In this document: positions 33,916 through 64,000 of the stretch, piece after piece | How positions within the stretch are numbered: position 1 is the stretch's first letter | How the letters are laid out: each line of letters opens with the position of its first letter | DNA from: Armatimonadota bacterium | Lineage (GTDB): Bacteria; Armatimonadota; HRBIN16 | Direction: 5' to 3' | Assembly: GCA_026003175.1 (NCBI GenBank) | Contig: BPGT01000005.1 | Coordinates: 130,810-194,809 of the forward strand | DNA: 64,000 bases | The notes under the pieces: model-generated | Told to the model about the DNA's origin: nothing | The model's input: the letters and a program-made list of their open reading frames with translations, nothing else | Databases searched by the model: none | Position numbers and translations under genes: made by a program

Positions 33916-34003
33916 TCTTCACATCACCTCCGATAAATATTATGACAACCCTTGGGAGAAGCGGTCAACCTTACCTGAAAAAATCGCGGGAGCGTGCAGG
34001 ACT

Positions 34004-34189
34004 GAGGGTGTTCGAGAATTGTTGAGAAGTTGGTTGTAGCGCAAGGAGAGAGGCGTTCTTGCTATCCCTGCCTTACCTCACCCCCGTCCCCTCTCCTACG
34101 AGGAGAGGGGCGTTCCCCCTTCCCTTGCAGGGAAGGGGGCAAGGGGGTTAGGTTATCTATCCATTCAACCAGCAATTTCGAACACCCTC
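34004..34189. mobile_element. 186-bp MITE, copy at 34 kb
   Basis: The ends are GAGGGTGTTCGAGAATTG and, inverted, GAGGGTGTTCGAAATTG; the interior is two GC-rich hairpins. A 9-bp target duplication, tgcaggact, flanks it at 33995-34003 and 34190-34198. The two copies at 52921 and 53116 have the same length and nearly the same sequence, and the terminal GAGGGTGTTC is shared with the IS at 53311. The element encodes nothing and would depend on that transposase. Confidence 0.9.
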
Positions 34190-52911: not shown

Positions 52912-52920
52912 CCACCCCCT

Positions 52921-53106
52921 GAGGGTGTTCGAGAATTGTTGAGAAGTTGGTTGTAGCGCAAGGAGAGAGGCGTTCTTGCTATCCCTGCCTTACCTCACCC
53001 CCGTCCCCTCTCCTACGAGGAGAGGGGCGTTCCCCCTTCCCTTGCAGGGAAGGGGGCAAGGGGGTTAGGTTATCTACCCATTCAACCAGCAATTTCGAAC
53101 ACCCTC
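52921..53106. mobile_element. 186-bp MITE, first copy of the cluster
   Basis: Same ends and interior as the copy at 34004; one difference is seen (tatctaccca in place of tatctatcca). It is preceded by ccaccccct (52912-52920) and followed by gttccatct (53107-53115). It has no coding capacity. Confidence 0.88.
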
Positions 53107-53115
53107 GTTCCATCT

Positions 53116-53301
53116 GAGGGTGTTCGAGAATTGTTGAGAAGTTGGTTGTAGCGCAAGGAGAGAGGCGTTCTTGCTATCCCTGCCTTACCTCACCCCCGTC
53201 CCCTCTCCTACGAGGAGAGGGGCGTTCCCCCTTCCCTTGCAGGGAAGGGGGCAAGGGGGTTAGGTTATCTATCCATTCAACCAGCAATTTCGAACACCCT
53301 C
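53116..53301. mobile_element. 186-bp MITE, second copy of the cluster
   Basis: It appears identical to the copy at 34004. Nine bases (gttccatct) separate it from the first MITE and nine (ccaccccct) from the IS. The pair of MITEs plus spacer is flanked by ccaccccct on both sides, as if it had moved as one composite unit. Confidence 0.88.
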
Positions 53302-54256
53302 CCACCCCCTGAGGGTGTTCGAAAAATCGCATAGACCCCACACCCACCACCAACACACAAAACAACCGCTACCAGCCACCTGCACCACACCCACCATGTT
53401 CCACAACACAAACATGCCCCACACCCACACCCGTGCAACCACCCACGAACGCGCTCGCCACACACTCCCATAAGCTCCCTTCACACTACCAAACACCTGC
53501 TCTATCCGATAACGCTCCCGCAACGCCCAACCATATGTCTGCGCACGTGCACGCGCACGCAACCGCGCATCCGCACGCACCTGCTGCCACACGCCATCCC
53601 GAACCACTGCCACAGGCAACCAACCCGCACGCTCCAACGCAACCAATAACTGCGCCCGATAACCATACAACCCGTCCCCAACTAATAAAGTGCCACACGA
53701 CAAACCACCAAGCCCATGACGCTCCACCCACTCCCACAACAGACGCCCCTCATCCGCATATGCCCCCCCACACGATAACCCCATCACCCACACCCGACCC
53801 CCCTGCCAACACCCCAACGCCACCACCTTCACATGCGACCGCTGCTGACGTACCTGTGCCCCACGCAAATACTGCGCCAAAAACGGTGAGGCATACCCCA
53901 CGCCCGTGCCATCCACAAACACACACGGCGTTTCACGGGTCGGTGTCTCTGACGCGATGCCCTGCTGGGCAAGCCAAGTGAGCAGTTGGTGCAGGCGTTC
54001 GTCTGCAAGATGCTGCAACAGGCAGGGGTTGGTCGGGCAGCAGTTCTGGGGCGAGGGCGAACAGTAGGCGTCGGTAGGAGGCGTTTTCGCGCACTCCCAG
54101 CAAGAGGAGGGTGAGGATGAGCGCTTCGGGGTATTTGTAGGGTCGCCCGCGGCGTGGGGGCAGAGGATGGATTTGGCAGAAGCGTTGGACGATGGTGAAG
54201 ATGACCTTCACCGACAGGGTAGTGAGTCTGCTTTGTGGTAGGTATCGTCGTTTCAT
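53269..54256 (-). CDS. DDE transposase of the IS4/IS5-like group, split by a +1 frameshift
   Basis: The N-terminal frame (from 54256) has RRGRPYKYPEALILTLLLLGVRENASYRRLLFAL, a DUF4096-like DNA-binding part. The second frame carries the catalytic core: Asp in VFVDGTGVGY, Asp in LLVGDGLYGYRAQ and Glu in ERYRIEQVFGSVKGAYGS, with the E-6-K spacing. One base less in the run of four at 54025-54028 joins them (LLPDQPCLLQHLADERL), total about 328 residues. The frame has no stop inside the IS and ends in the neighbouring MITE at 53269. It could be programmed shifting, decay or a miscall. Confidence 0.75.
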
Positions 54257-54299
54257 GGAATCGATATACCCGATACTAACCGATTTTTTGAACACCCTC
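53311..54299 (-). mobile_element. Insertion sequence, 989 bp, 19-bp inverted repeats, 9-bp target duplication
   Basis: The left end is GAGGGTGTTCGAAAAATCG and the inverted right end GAGGGTGTTCAAAAAATCG, matching at 18 of 19 positions. Direct repeats ccaccccct flank it at 53302-53310 and 54300-54308. It holds one transposase gene on the minus strand. The first 12 terminal bases are shared with the three MITEs. The 9-bp duplication and the DDE protein fit the IS4/IS5-like supergroup; a precise family cannot be given. Confidence 0.88.
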
Positions 54300-55598: not shown

Positions 55599-55643
55599 TG
55601 GAGCCGACGGGCGGATTCGAACCGCCGACCTACGCATTACGAG
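55599..55643 (-). other. Left attachment site: displaced 3' end of tRNA-Thr
   Basis: Read on the minus strand it covers the anticodon CGT, the T-arm GGCGGTTCGAATCCGCC, the acceptor 3' strand and CCA. Directly upstream the anticodon stem is lost (gagattgacc instead of gagtg), so it cannot make a tRNA. It is the copy cut off by integration. Confidence 0.92.
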
Positions 55644-55756
55644 ATTGACCTCCTGCCTCTATTATTGTCTGTTAACGTCCATGAATGTATAAAATTCAGG
55701 CAGTCTGGTGATGTATTTTCTCTCTTTTTCCACGTTCGTCTACCGCCGTCTACCAC

Positions 55757-56342: not shown

Positions 56343-56480
56343 GATGTGATCCACCACACGCGAAGTGACAGAATACCGAGAGATGCGCTGGGCAGGCTCT
56401 TTTCCCTGTCACCGCCAGCCAGCTCTGTGCTAAAATCATACTTGAAATCTCAAAAAACGTCAAGATGTCAGGAGGTCCGT

Positions 56481-56678
56481 ATGGACGACGTCAAGCTGTT
56501 GCTGAAAATGACGGAGGCAGCGGAGATGCTGTCGGTCTCTCGCGCCAATTTCTACCGGCTGGTCAGTGACGGTCGCATCAGAACTGTCCGCCTGGGGCGG
56601 GCACGGCGCGTGCCGGTGGACGAGCTCCGGCGGTTTGTCGACGACTTGTGCCGCGCTCAATCGGAGGGGGAGGCGTGA
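56481..56678 (+). CDS. Excisionase-like winged helix-turn-helix protein
   Basis: The 65 residues read LLKMTEAAEMLSVSRANFYRLVSDGRIRTVRLGRARRVPVDELRRFVDDL, the MerR-like HTH_17 fold of excisionases and small DNA binders. AGGAGG stands 7 bases before the ATG. Being the first gene of the rightward operon of an integrative element, it is probably a recombination directionality factor or operon regulator. A TAAAAT near 56431 may be the -10. Confidence 0.8.
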   Translation: MDDVKLLLKMTEAAEMLSVSRANFYRLVSDGRIRTVRLGRARRVPVDELRRFVDDLCRAQSEGEA

Positions 56679-56728: not shown

Positions 56729-56753
56729 GACGATGGAGGAACACATAGACACC

Positions 56754-58760
56754 ATGAGTATACCACAGCAAGCGCAAAACATTCTACACAAGCTACGCGG
56801 TGTGCGTCAACAGAGAGACGGCAGCTGGTTCGCCCTCTGCCCCGCACACGGTGACCACGAGCCAAGCCTGCATGTTTCGCTGAACCATGACCGCATCCTG
56901 CTGCATTGCTTCGCGGGATGTAATGTGGACAGCATCTGCAGGGCACTCGGCATCCGCGCCGCCGACCTGTTCCTGCACAACGGACACTCTGAATCTTCCG
57001 ATGACGGGCTGACCCTTGAGCAGTTTGCGCAGGCGAAAGGTCTGGACGTTAACCTGCTACAGGCGTGGTACGTGCGTGACAGCACCTTGCAGGGCAAGCC
57101 GGTGGTGGCGTTCTCCTACATAGACGCCGATGGCAATCTGCAAGCGGTGCGCTACCGCACAGCCCTCACGGGCGACCGCTTCCGCTGGCAGAACGGCGCG
57201 AAGCCAAAAGAATTGCTTTACGGCACGTGGTGGCTACCGCTGTGGCGCGAGAAGGGCATCCCGCACGTGATGCTGGTGGAGGGCGAAAGTGACTGCCTCG
57301 CGCTGTGGCAGGCAGGCATCCCTGCGGTAGGCGTTGCTGGTGCGGATTGCCTCTCCCCCAAAAATGCCAGCCTGCTGGAAGGCTTGGAGCTGGTGCTATG
57401 GCAAGAGCGCGATGGCGGTGGACGCAGACTGCTGGAGGACGCAGCACAGCTGTTCGGTGACCGCCTGCGCGTGATGGAACCACCTCAGGGCGTCAAAGAC
57501 CCCTCCGACCTCTGGCTCCGCATCCTGCGTGAGGAAGGCACGGACGCTGAATCCTGGACAAAGGCGCGTGAACGGTTCGAAGCGCAGATTCGGCAGATGA
57601 TGCGCGAGGCAACGCAAGTGACGGAAGTGACGGAGCCTATATATATGCCGCCACATCCGTCACTTGCCCAAACCACCTCTCAACTTATGGACCTGGGGAT
57701 GTTTCCTGAGCCTGCACCTCAAGAGTGGTTGGTGAAAGACCTGATCCCTGCACGCTTCATCACGAATTTGTTCGCCGACAGTGGACAGGGGAAGAGCTTT
57801 CTCATTCTACACCTTGCGCTGTGTTGCCTTACTGGCGAGCCCTTCTGTGGCAAGCGCGTGAAGGCAGGCAAAGTGCTCTACTTAGACTGGGAGTTGGACG
57901 CGGAAACCACAGCGCGAAGATGGTATGCCGTATGTCGCGGTGCTGGCTTTGAGGATGCCTTGAGAGGATTGCTGTATGAGCGCATGACCAAACCCCTGAC
58001 TGCTGTCTTCCCCTACATTCAAAGCCTCGCACACGAGCACTCACCGGCAGTGGTGGTGGTAGACAGTCTGGGCAAGGCGTTGGGGACTGACCCTCGTGAC
58101 CCTGAGAAGGCAATACAGGCATACAACCTGCTGGAGCAACTGCCTTGTGCGGTGCTGGTGATTGACCACCAGGGCAAACTGCAAGCCGAGGACACCTACG
58201 CAAACAAGAGCGAATATGGCACGGCTTATAAGGCCCACTATGCGCGGTCGCGTTTGCAGATTGAACGCATTGGCGAATCGGTGACAAGCGCGAAGGCTAA
58301 CGACACAGTCACTTCGGCAGTTTCGCGTGTGGGCATCGTGATTCGGCACAAGAAGAGCACCTTCGGTGCACTGCATCCTGACCTGCACCTCGTCATGACC
58401 TTCACGAACGACGTGGAAGGCAACCTGCGGTTAGTGCGATTTGAGCAGGTGCAAAGTGCAACCCACGAAGCCGAAGCGCTAGGAGTTCGAGGCGAAATCC
58501 TCATGGCTTTGCGCGAGGCTGACCGGACGGTGGAAGAACTGGAAGAGCTCACAGGACTGCCCCGCACCACAATCAGCGACCACCTCCGCGCCCTGCACAG
58601 GGCAGGCTTGGTTGCGGAGAAGGGCAAGCGCGGACGCGCTAAGGTGTGGGGTCAGCGAACTGACGAAGTGACGGACATATATAATACTCGTCAGTTCGTC
58701 AGTTCGTCAGAAGATGCCCCCTTGCTGCTGGAGTGGGATGTTGCAAATGACTGCGATTGA
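56754..58760 (+). CDS. Primase-helicase (CHC2 zinc finger, TOPRIM, RecA-like ATPase, winged helix)
   Basis: From ATG 56754 the 668 residues hold the zinc finger Cys29-His32-Cys52-Cys56 (CPAHGDHEPS, HCFAGC). The TOPRIM-type core has MLVEGESDCLAL and the pattern GVKDPSDLWL. A RepA/DnaB-like ATPase follows with FADSGQGKS (Walker A), VLYLDWELD and AVVVVDSLGKAL (Walker B), then a C-terminal winged helix (RTVEELEELTGLPRTTISDHLRALHRAGLV). Such fusions start replication of plasmids and satellites (P4 alpha-like logic). ATG 56733 is an alternative start; the region before holds the 16-bp hairpin. Confidence 0.9.
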   Translation: MSIPQQAQNILHKLRGVRQQRDGSWFALCPAHGDHEPSLHVSLNHDRILLHCFAGCNVDSICRALGIRAADLFLHNGHSESSDDGLTLEQFAQAKGLDVNLLQAWYVRDSTLQGKPVVAFSYIDADGNLQAVRYRTALTGDRFRWQNGAKPKELLYGTWWLPLWREKGIPHVMLVEGESDCLALWQAGIPAVGVAGADCLSPKNASLLEGLELVLWQERDGGGRRLLEDAAQLFGDRLRVMEPPQGVKDPSDLWLRILREEGTDAESWTKARERFEAQIRQMMREATQVTEVTEPIYMPPHPSLAQTTSQLMDLGMFPEPAPQEWLVKDLIPARFITNLFADSGQGKSFLILHLALCCLTGEPFCGKRVKAGKVLYLDWELDAETTARRWYAVCRGAGFEDALRGLLYERMTKPLTAVFPYIQSLAHEHSPAVVVVDSLGKALGTDPRDPEKAIQAYNLLEQLPCAVLVIDHQGKLQAEDTYANKSEYGTAYKAHYARSRLQIERIGESVTSAKANDTVTSAVSRVGIVIRHKKSTFGALHPDLHLVMTFTNDVEGNLRLVRFEQVQSATHEAEALGVRGEILMALREADRTVEELEELTGLPRTTISDHLRALHRAGLVAEKGKRGRAKVWGQRTDEVTDIYNTRQFVSSSEDAPLLLEWDVANDCD

Positions 58761-60931: not shown

Positions 60932-61285
60932 GTGACACTTAAAAAAGGGCGCGATTGGCGTGAGAAGTTTCTGGCTGCCCTCGCGCGTGGTTGCAGCGTC
61001 AGCCAGGCAGCCAGGCTGGCAGGCGTTTCCAGACAGCACGCCTACCGGTGCAGGCAGCGCAGCAATACCTTCGCCCAGCAGTGGGAGGACGCTTGGGAAC
61101 AGGGCACAGACGCGCTGGAGGACGAAGCCGTGCGCCGCGCACTTGCCGGCAGCGACACGTTGCTGATGTTCCTGCTGAAGGCACGACGCCCAGAGAAGTA
61201 CCGCGACAACGTTCGCGTGGAACACGACGCCAGTCGTGAGATGCTGGATGCGCTGGAAGAAGCAATCAAACGTGTTCAAAGCTAG
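60932..61285 (+). CDS. Terminase-small-subunit-like helix-turn-helix protein
   Basis: The 117 residues have an N-terminal HTH (FLAALARGCSVSQAARLAGVSRQHAYRCRQRSNTFAQQWEDAWEQG) and a C-terminal part DALEDEAVRRALAGSDTLLMFLLKARRPEKYRD. This pairing is typical of small phage terminases (phBC6A51-like), which recognise DNA for packaging. A terS without large terminase is the hallmark of satellites that use a helper phage's packaging machine. GTG at 60932 is the start, 8 bases after the upstream stop. Confidence 0.72.
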   Translation: MTLKKGRDWREKFLAALARGCSVSQAARLAGVSRQHAYRCRQRSNTFAQQWEDAWEQGTDALEDEAVRRALAGSDTLLMFLLKARRPEKYRDNVRVEHDASREMLDALEEAIKRVQS

Positions 61286-61295
61286 CTGCCGAACT

Positions 61296-62042
61296 GTGGG
61301 TTGTTCGCCTGACCCCTCCGATGACGAAGGTCGAGCGTCATCGTGGGGGGATTTTTTCTCTTTACCACCAGACTGGTTCCCTGTATGCAGCCTTCGCCGT
61401 GTGGTGGTGCACAGCGCGCCCGTGTGCGAACCCCTTGACGACCTGCTGCCGTGCTACCATTTTCTCATCGCGAAGGGTGGCGCAGTAGCACGCGGGGTGT
61501 TCTCGTTAGCAGACAACGCCTCACCGCAACGAGGACAGGGCTACGCGAGGCACACGCACGCTTTCAACATCGGCAGTGCAGGCGTGCTGCTGGTGGGCAA
61601 GTCCCCTAACGAACGGCAATGGAACAGTCTGGTGTCGCTGTGTCGGCTGTTGTGTTCGCGCTACCAGCTGGATGTTCGCGACGTGCAGACGCACGGCGAA
61701 CTGGAACCCGACACGGACGACCTTGTGGGGTGGGGCGACCGCTTGAGGCAAGCCATCGGCAGCGCACCGCTGCCAGAGTGCGAAGAACCGCCCGCCTACG
61801 TCAATGTGTTCGTGGGCGACACGAAGCTGCTGGCGAGGCAGGACGGAGGCGACCTGTGGGTTCCCAGAACGCATCTAACCAGGCAGCTTGGCTGCCTCCC
61901 AGAGTTGCCGATGGAGACGCACATCATTTACGGCACGGCGTTGGTTTGCGTACCCTTGCGTCAGGTGCTGTCATCGCTGCACCGGCACGTTGTGTGGGAC
62001 ACCCGCCTTCGCGCCTTGAAACTGGAACCCCTTGAGGAATAA
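61296..62042 (+). CDS. N-acetylmuramoyl-L-alanine amidase-like (PGRP-fold) protein
   Basis: The 248 residues have RRVVVHSAP, LLPCYHFLIAKGGAVARGVFSLADNASPQRGQGYARHTHAFNIGSAGVLLVGKSPNERQWNSLVSLCRLLCSRYQLDV and THGELEP. The order YHF - HNxGS-type (HAFNIGS) - C-terminal His (THGEL) follows the amidase_2/PGRP fold. The zinc ligands would be His in VVHSA, His in HTHAF and possibly His in THGEL. It may be a lysin helping release. The C-terminal 90 residues are unassigned. GTG 61296 is the best start, but no clear ribosome site precedes it. Confidence 0.65.
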   Translation: MGCSPDPSDDEGRASSWGDFFSLPPDWFPVCSLRRVVVHSAPVCEPLDDLLPCYHFLIAKGGAVARGVFSLADNASPQRGQGYARHTHAFNIGSAGVLLVGKSPNERQWNSLVSLCRLLCSRYQLDVRDVQTHGELEPDTDDLVGWGDRLRQAIGSAPLPECEEPPAYVNVFVGDTKLLARQDGGDLWVPRTHLTRQLGCLPELPMETHIIYGTALVCVPLRQVLSSLHRHVVWDTRLRALKLEPLEE

Positions 62043-62069
62043 AAAACTGCTTGCCATCCGCACCGATGC

Positions 62070-62336
62070 TGTCTTGCGATTGTTGCATCAGGTCAGCGAA
62101 ATCGCTGACCTGATGCAAGTTTTGCAATCCAATTGTCTTGCAATTGTAGCATGAGGTCGCAAATTTTTGCGACCTGATGCAATTTTTGCAATCCAATTGT
62201 CTTGCGATTGTGGCATGAGGTCGGCGATTTCGCCGACCTGATGCAACTTTTGCAATCCAGGCCAATCAGAACTGTCTCGCAATTGTTGCATCAGGTTACA
62301 AAAATTTGTGACCTGACGCAATTTTTGCAATCTAAC
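62070..62336 (+). repeat. Array of four 32-bp palindromes with variable, compensated inner arms and constant linkers
   Basis: Palindromes occupy 62085-62116, 62149-62180, 62213-62244 and 62288-62319. The outer arm GCATcAGGTC/GACCTGATGC is shared; the inner six bases are CAGCGA, CGCAAA, CGGCGA and TACAAA, each paired with its own complement around a 2-base centre. Linkers of 32, 32 and 43 bases contain ttttgcaatcca and tgtcttgc. Every hairpin is followed by AA(n)TTTT. There is no long reading frame. It lies between the amidase stop and the integrase promoter. Confidence 0.9.
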
Positions 62337-62343
62337 TGGTCGC

Positions 62344-62372
62344 TTGACACGTTTTGTAGAGAATGCTAAGAT
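62344..62372 (+). promoter_or_regulatory. Promoter of the small protein-integrase operon
   Basis: TTGACA at 62344-62349 and TAAGAT at 62367-62372 are 17 bases apart, starting only 8 bases after the palindrome array. The 150-base leader has the hairpin GACGGCG/CGCCGTC (62380-62408) and a GGAGGAGG ribosome site. Confidence 0.7.
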
Positions 62373-62521
62373 GAAAATGACGGCGCGTAGCCGGAACTAC
62401 CGCCGTCGTGGCGTCCACAGGCGGGAGCTGTGAACGCAGGAACAGTGTAGCATCCTCTGCAAGCCTGCGTCAAGCCCCCTTGCTGTGAACGCCTCAAGAG
62501 ACCCGCAAAGGAGGAGGAACG

Positions 62522-62710
62522 ATGAACGAACGTGTTCGCGAAGCCGTTGAGGTCATGCTGGATTACGTGCGCACCCACCCTGAGGAAGAGATGGAAGATG
62601 CCCTCTTCTTTGCGTACCAACACTTGCTTGCTGCCCACCAGTGGCGATTGCAACTGAACCGACAGGAACTGGATGAGGCGTGGGAGATGCTGCGAGCGGA
62701 GGTGCGTTGA
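62522..62710 (+). CDS. Small acidic helical protein upstream of the integrase
   Basis: The 62 residues read MNERVREAVEVMLDYVRTHPEEEMEDALFFAYQHLLAAHQWRLQLNRQELDEAWEMLRAEVR. No family is known. GGAGGAGG precedes the ATG by 5 bases, and the stop overlaps the integrase start by one base (TGATG), so the two are coupled. It might control the integrase or act as a DNA mimic, judging from its acidity, but this is speculation. Confidence 0.65.
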   Translation: MNERVREAVEVMLDYVRTHPEEEMEDALFFAYQHLLAAHQWRLQLNRQELDEAWEMLRAEVR

Positions 62711-63852
62711 TGGCGAGACGACGAGGCAACAATGAGGGCAGCATCACGCAGCTGCCCGACGGTCGCTGGCAGGCGCGAATCACCTATTACGAAGGGGGCA
62801 AGCGCAGGCGCAAAGCGTTCTACGGTGCCACACGCAAGGAAGCGCAGGAGAAGCTTCTGCAAGCCCTCGCCGACCTGCAGCGAGGCATCATGCCCACGAC
62901 CGGAAGGCAGACGGTGGGGGAGTTTCTGGCTTCCTGGTTGGAGGAATCTGCCAGACCCACCCTGCGCCCTCGCACTTACCGACGCTACCACGAAATTGTG
63001 CATCTGCACCTGGTGCCGACGTTGGGACACATCGCGCTGTCCAAACTCACGCCCCTGCAGGTGCAGAAGCTGCTGAACGAGAAGATTGCGAGCGGTCTCT
63101 CCCCTGCGACGGTGATGTACATCCTTGCGGTGCTGCGCCGCGCGCTCGGTCAAGCCGAGAAGTGGCAGCTGGTACCTCGCAACGTGGCGAAGCTGGTGGA
63201 CGCGCCTCGCGTGTCGCGTGAGGAGGTGCAGCCGTTCACGGTCGAGGAGGTGCAGAGGCTGCTGGAGACGGCGCGAGGTCACCGGTTATACGCGCTGTTC
63301 GTGCTGGCGGTGGCGTCAGGACTACGCCAGGGCGAACTGCTGGGTTTGCGGTGGCAGGATGTAGATTTTGAACGAGGCACGCTCACGGTAGCGGTGCAGC
63401 TGCAAACCATTGACGGCAAGCAGGTGCTGGTGGAGCCGAAGACCGCCCGCAGCAGGCGCACGCTGCAGATTCCACAGTTCGTGCTGGACGTTCTGCAGCA
63501 GCACCGCGCCAACCAGTTGCTGGAGAAGGCGCAGGAGGGCGAATCATGGCGTGAACACGGGCTGGTGTTCGCATCTTCGGTGGGCACGCCCGTACCGGCA
63601 CGCAACCTGCTTCGGCTTTGGTATAACCTGCTGAAGAAGGCAGGACTGCCGAAGCGTCCGTTCCACACGCTGAGGCACACGGCAGCCAGTTACCTGCTGG
63701 CGATGGGTTGCGACCTTCGCACGGTGCAGCAAGTGCTGGGTCATTCGCAGGTCGGTTTGACCGCGAACCTCTACACCCACGTGATGCCCACGCTTTTGCA
63801 AGACGCGGCGCAGAAGATGGACGCGCTGTTTCGGCGGTTGCTGGAGGGCTAA
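62710..63852 (+). CDS. int: Tyrosine recombinase / phage-type integrase
   Basis: The 380-residue enzyme has an AP2-like arm-binding N-terminus (NNEGSITQLPDGRWQARITYYEGGKRRRKAF), a SAM-like core-binding domain (TVGEFLASWLEESARPTLRPRTYRRYHEIV) and the catalytic domain with Arg206 (ASGLRQGELLGL), Lys244, His319 and Arg322 (HTLRHTAA), His345 (LGHSQ) and nucleophile Tyr355 (LYTHV). All catalytic residues are present. It integrates the element into the tRNA-Thr gene whose 3' end lies 100 bases downstream. Int with its att site next to it is the normal prophage arrangement. Confidence 0.96.
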   Translation: MARRRGNNEGSITQLPDGRWQARITYYEGGKRRRKAFYGATRKEAQEKLLQALADLQRGIMPTTGRQTVGEFLASWLEESARPTLRPRTYRRYHEIVHLHLVPTLGHIALSKLTPLQVQKLLNEKIASGLSPATVMYILAVLRRALGQAEKWQLVPRNVAKLVDAPRVSREEVQPFTVEEVQRLLETARGHRLYALFVLAVASGLRQGELLGLRWQDVDFERGTLTVAVQLQTIDGKQVLVEPKTARSRRTLQIPQFVLDVLQQHRANQLLEKAQEGESWREHGLVFASSVGTPVPARNLLRLWYNLLKKAGLPKRPFHTLRHTAASYLLAMGCDLRTVQQVLGHSQVGLTANLYTHVMPTLLQDAAQKMDALFRRLLEG

Positions 63853-63953: not shown

Positions 63954-64000
63954 TGGAGCCGACGGGCGGATTCGAACCGCCGACCTACGCATTACGAGTG
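63954..64000 (-). tRNA. tRNA-Thr (CGU anticodon), 5' part beyond window; right att site
   Basis: Read on the minus strand: anticodon loop CTCGTAA with anticodon CGT, 3' anticodon stem TGCGT, T-arm GGCGG-TTCGAAT-CCGCC, acceptor CGTCGGC, discriminator T, encoded CCA. The last two window bases (TG) begin the complementary 5' anticodon stem, so the gene appears whole beyond the edge. Bases 63954-63998 equal the left att copy. Confidence 0.88.

Follow-up and report, generated by a model that had tools for sequence, protein, structure and literature searches.

The window analysed here, a stretch of 64,000 nucleotides from an Armatimonadota genome (contig BPGT01000005.1), contains near its right end an array of four palindromes whose interiors differ while their linkers stay constant, and it raises the question of where such sites come from and which protein, if any, may read them.

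The element and its palindrome array

We found that the array lies between an amidase gene on one side and an integrase gene on the other, within an 8.4-kb element that has, at each border, a direct repeat (at least 40 bp) of a tRNA 3' end. The features of the element are as follows.

55600..55644, no strand: left att repeat (tRNA 3' end)
56460..56678, plus strand: HTH_17 (AlpA/excisionase-like) protein
56748..58760, plus strand: primase-helicase (CHC2/Toprim/AAA_25) with a C-terminal winged helix
59719..60123, plus strand: VRR-NUC protein, with 71% identity to a VRR-NUC protein encoded on G004:C8, the contig of a candidate helper phage
60932..61285, plus strand: terminase-small-subunit-like HTH protein
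61302..62042, plus strand: Amidase_2-like gene, the last before the array
62067, 62131, 62195 and 62270: starts of the palindrome array units, 68 nt each
62085..62116, no strand: site 1, GCATCAGGT CAGCGAAATCGCTG ACCTGATGC, half-site TCGCTG
62149..62180, no strand: site 2, half-site TTTGCG
62213..62244, no strand: site 3, half-site TCGCCG
62288..62319, no strand: site 4, half-site TTTGTG in one arm and TTTGTA in the other
62344..62372, plus strand: sigma-70-like promoter immediately past the array, TTGACA-17-TAAGAT
62372..62480, plus strand: stably folding leader downstream of the promoter (z -3.5)
62522..62710, plus strand: small ORF of no family
62710..63852, plus strand: tyrosine integrase
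63955..64000, minus strand: right att repeat, inside a partial tRNA gene at the contig end

The primase-helicase, the terminase-small-subunit-like protein, the integrase and the 40-bp tRNA direct repeats support the satellite status that an earlier note on this DNA had assumed, and neither a capsid nor a large-terminase gene was seen among the genes of the element, for which a phage satellite is the natural reading. No similar element DNA was found in the phage collection, and the TerS-like protein showed no similarity to the phage TerS. A second copy is present in the same genome (G000), with 7 mismatches in 8.4 kb; its tRNA-Lys flanks lie on two different contigs, C2 and C1. Because these near-identical copies occupy two tRNA genes (C5 end, C2 start and C1 end), the satellite has moved recently; the copies also break the G000 assembly. 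Elsewhere in the window, we noted near-identical 190-bp repeats (34002-34189, 52919-53106 and 53114-53304) and a transposase-like gene (53269-54299) with 99.9% identity to a copy on contig C4.

Re-measurement bore out the four regular units described previously, with spacings of 64, 64 and 75, as well as inner arms that vary yet stay complementary. In a covariation test on 14 units from the same genome and a sister species, 92.4% of the cells of the 17-bp palindrome were paired and 26 cells showed double changes, against 9.8 in shuffles, with 0/500 shuffles reaching 26, and pairing was lost when the partner was slid by 1-3 columns. In a separate comparison, compensatory changes occurred in 6 pairs. 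The claim of pairing in all four window units holds overall, but not all units are perfect: a T-G wobble occurs in unit 4, and the outer arms of unit 2 contain a mismatch. The array is AT-rich and consists of iterated palindromes with the outline CAGGT..ACCTG and a variable interior, which do not match the canonical parS consensus TGTTNCACGTGAAACA; the window sites are even-centred, and the centre flips between AA and TT from unit to unit. In the satellite units, as in the in-gene copies described below, the sites are two-fold symmetric DNA, and stoperators, which are asymmetric oriented sites (PMC4351075), were rejected for this reason. CRISPR was also rejected, as it had been before, because the linkers are constant while the hairpin interiors vary.

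Across related elements, arrays comprise 1, 3 or 4 units with differing half-sites. An element on contig C4 of the same genome has an array 98% identical to that of the window, and three elements in the sister species G004 have 1, 3 and 3 units. Homologous elements lacking the array had been named as evidence against selection on its structure; two such elements were found (G003:C6 and G000:C1:336k), so the array is optional rather than essential. Identical interiors in all relatives, which would have argued for simple duplication, were not seen, as the interiors turn over. Specifically, when unit 1 of the window is compared with its orthologue in G004:C1:826k, the flanks differ at 0/48 and 1/28 positions and the interiors at 6/14, all of the latter changes being complementary. 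The apparent specificity of the array is changing faster than anything around it.

Homologous sites within phage genes

A covariance-model search with the unit, proposed in the earlier note, was run together with a DNA search and yielded one more copy, located in frame within a gene on contig C8 of G004. This gene encodes ParB_N, HTH and N6/N4 methyltransferase domains (Pfam ParB_N and HTH_23 in the protein), and the contig, a candidate helper, has one such site, inside the ParB-MTase gene, along with genes judged from their sequences to be terminase-, portal- and recombinase-like. Covariance-model hits in G002 and G006 were weak and were judged unrelated, being AT-rich TGTTGAAAAC-type repeats by a dnaA-like gene, at a probable oriC (L226 ~8278, G002:C2:168278, and the matching G006:C424), and a DnaB-like hit in G047 was judged to be due to chance. 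A first pattern scan of IMG/VR gave no ParB-MTase relatives. The viral contig IMGVR 3300014796_000053 carries a syntenic homologue of the G004:C8 gene, with 61% identity and the same linker (..LQKWHQVAQFDHLMQQSQDD..SIGADGKRYP), and its protein matches Spo0J/Noc/ParB structures (Spo0J 6sdk, E=6e-9).

The window unit and its flank align at the DNA level to the linker of the phage gene, with ACCTGATGCAACAATCGCAAGAC in common, and unit 1 with its flank translates to LQNLHQVSDFADLMQQSQDSIGADGKQ on the minus strand, which gives one further feature.

62050..62138, minus strand: stretch (..LQNLHQVSDFADLMQQSQDSIGADGKQ..) with in-frame homology to the linker behind the HTH of phage ParB_N-HTH-methyltransferase genes

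In two phages from the same genus, the in-gene site thus shares homology and reading frame with the array but differs in its inner half-sites. The array most likely derives from such a phage ParB_N-HTH-methyltransferase gene, because the satellite also retains the flanking codons (GADGK). None of the four window half-sites (0/4) equals the in-gene half-sites of the group's two known phages (TTGATA; TTGACC/GGGCC), so neither phage is an exact helper match. No ParB_N-HTH-methyltransferase gene of this type was found in the satellite's own genome, and ParA was not seen.

We found palindromes at the same position, roughly 54 nt beyond the codons of the recognition helix, in ParB_N-HTH genes of unrelated phages and plasmids, with arms that differ greatly from gene to gene. 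On synonymous recoding of the linker, the palindrome went beyond codon choice (p<=0.05) in 43/64 protein-retrieved genes, 28 of them at the floor, compared with 2/17 control canonical ParB genes. The inner half-site tracks residues 2-4 of the recognition helix, as listed.

DHK helix: inner half-site CCCC
DDK or SDK helix: inner half-site CCGC (CCGA in two SDK genes)
DNK helix: inner half-site CCTC
DKN helix: inner half-site CACC
SHH helix: inner half-site GCCC
SPT helix: inner half-site GGAC or GGAA

The partial correlation between helix and inner half-site was 0.87 with ParB_N identity controlled, and it was 0.62 without the commonest helix and 0.83 in 13 genes with <60% identity. Some gene copies had first been found by the palindrome pattern, and the key tests were rerun on protein-retrieved genes only, giving 0.77 (n=37). 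Helix and site are adjacent in the DNA, and linkage could itself produce a correlation; once the residues that immediately precede, separate and follow the two were controlled for, the partial r was 0.85, and the outer arm, used as a negative control, showed no correlation with the helix (r = 0.0, and -0.16 with local flanks controlled). Because the inner half-site tracks the recognition helix and the outer arm does not, we predict with high confidence that the in-gene palindrome is the encoded protein's own site in double-stranded DNA. A correlation confined to the inner arm therefore favours recognition of double-stranded DNA by a symmetric dimer and disfavours RNA hairpins and cruciforms, and, among the options raised earlier, it is dimeric protein sites with different half-sites that the in-gene palindromes and the helix-site code support. 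The specificity set by the HTH was measured on the gene copies rather than on the satellite units themselves, and most of the sites used to fit the code were odd-centred, unlike those of the window, which are even-centred. The rule of an in-gene site covers a subfamily only, since the ParB-like gene of Cluster O mycobacteriophages, which are rich in palindromes, has none, contrary to prediction.

Possible function of the array beside a promoter

The array is located 25-27 bp upstream of the sigma-70 promoter or overlaps it. This promoter is common to the sister elements; in G004:C1:791k the last unit overlaps its -35, and in the array-less element G000:C1:336k it is still present. As a separate observation, the leader downstream contains a GCGTCC-stem-GAACGC motif that sister elements share whether or not they carry the array. 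Rfam assigned no family to the leader (62372-62480), and in the Rfam search as a whole no match reached a gathering score, only spurious eukaryotic miRNA hits appearing below it.

We consider it likely that the array represents several ParB-type (parS-like) sites of different specificities, placed by a sigma-70 promoter, with which the satellite would sense or hijack the ParB-like proteins of helper phages. A helper phage, either infecting or induced, would make its ParB-like protein, which would bind the unit with the matching half-site and load on the satellite DNA; the loaded protein may then switch the adjacent promoter and/or mark, methylate or stabilise the satellite DNA. Different half-sites would allow one satellite to respond to phages with different recognition helices.

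Alternatively, the sites may be decoys that titrate the helper's ParB-like protein and thereby weaken the helper, without control of the satellite's own promoter. The presence of several sites of varied specificity, the one such site in a gene of the helper contig itself, and the finding that SGI1 destabilises its helper partly via parS-like sites (PMC10954446) would fit decoys, but we regard them as unlikely, as the array always adjoins or overlaps the same promoter and there are just 1-4 sites per copy. Iterated AT-rich palindromes would also suit a replication origin or packaging site, as suggested earlier, recognised by the satellite's primase or terminase-like HTH protein, the element carrying genes for a primase-helicase and a TerS-like protein. 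There is no need for such a role, given that the array is missing from sister elements of the same gene content, and we find it improbable: the TerS-like recognition helix (SRQHAYRCR) is constant in all array-bearing elements whereas the inner arms differ, and the homology to the phage ParB gene would be left unexplained. It is very improbable that the array is a set of neutral repeats of no present function, in which hairpin template switching corrects one arm against the other; complementary changes would then be expected without selection, and the AA/TT flips of the centre and the optional presence of the array would agree, but the helix-site code, the placement after the HTH and the proximity to the promoter would not be accounted for. 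Finally, tandem intrinsic terminators, a small-RNA array or other hairpins selected as transcribed RNA or as cruciforms, all proposed in the earlier note, would be consistent with stable stems followed by TTTT and with complementary changes, but we give them next to no credence, as G+C-rich stems with a T (U) tract were not above chance (1 terminator-like site found, 0.9 expected), only the inner arm of the gene copies obeys an amino-acid recognition code, and the same palindromes occur in frame inside genes.

Palindrome arrays of mixed specificity also occur elsewhere, notably in three viral contigs that are related to one another, where 3-4 copies directly follow a portal-like gene.

L200, about 540-660: array
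L206, 7118-7217: array
L224, 3657-3736: array

These share the position and the code but have different half-sites (TTCCCC, TTCCGC, TTCCTC). Two further likenesses were noted. L367 (2194-2282) contains a tandem pair of palindromes with a spacing of 63 bp, which have differing inner arms and outer arms as in the window units; in L356 (8980-9005, IMGVR 2693429751_000005), the linker of a phage gene resembling a single-strand-binding protein gene includes, in frame, a TCAGGT..ACCTGA palindrome whose interior is complementary at 4/5 positions.

Beyond the sensing or hijacking role proposed above, a more general model, to which we would assign slightly less than even weight, is that phage ParB-like proteins and the operator after their HTH codons form a co-evolving cassette of reader plus site, and that satellites and some phages collect arrays of these sites, swapping inner arms to follow the helices of the phages that they depend on or compete with. 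If this is true, each sequenced phage would supply the protein along with its site, the recognition code would be readable from sequence alone, satellite arrays would be a record of the phage regulators responded to, and both helper-satellite specificity and HTH recognition would become testable at scale.

Comparison with known systems

In B. subtilis, one parS is located inside spo0J. The ParB-parS and Noc-NBS systems, in which site specificity is set by a few HTH residues (PMC7383237), resemble the present one in having a protein with ParB_N and HTH domains, a palindromic site and specificity determined by few HTH residues. The canonical parS is TGTTNCACGTGAAACA (PMC7022226), whereas the in-gene sites are unlike it, occupy a fixed place after the HTH codons and belong to fast-diverging phage proteins. 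Phage ParB-CTPase-fold methyltransferase fusions (PMC12704722) are the family of proteins in whose genes the palindrome lies, and the main text of this 2025 fold survey mentions neither palindromes nor an in-gene site. The 17-bp palindromes of Cluster O mycobacteriophages are similar in being dispersed in a phage, in having AAA/TTT at the centre and in their presumed binding of a dimer (PMC4351075), but their arms are invariant, and none of the 34 copies lies in the ParB-like gene.

A limited full-text search of the literature gave no account of a cognate site with a constant position behind the HTH codons, nor of satellite arrays of differing half-sites; helper-ParB sites on a dependent element (SGI1) and ParB specificity residues (PMC7383237) are known already. 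SGI1 has two near-identical parS-like sites, which are bound by the ParB of its IncC helper (PMC10954446), and it is a tested precedent for the hijacking of a helper's ParB by a dependent element. SGI1 is thus a helper-dependent mobile element with palindromes for the helper's ParB, and the satellite is proposed to be another, binding being predicted from its sequence. However, the SGI1 pair serves a single ParB, whereas the satellite has 1-4 sites with differing inner half-sites, related to the in-gene sites of phage ParB-MTase proteins.
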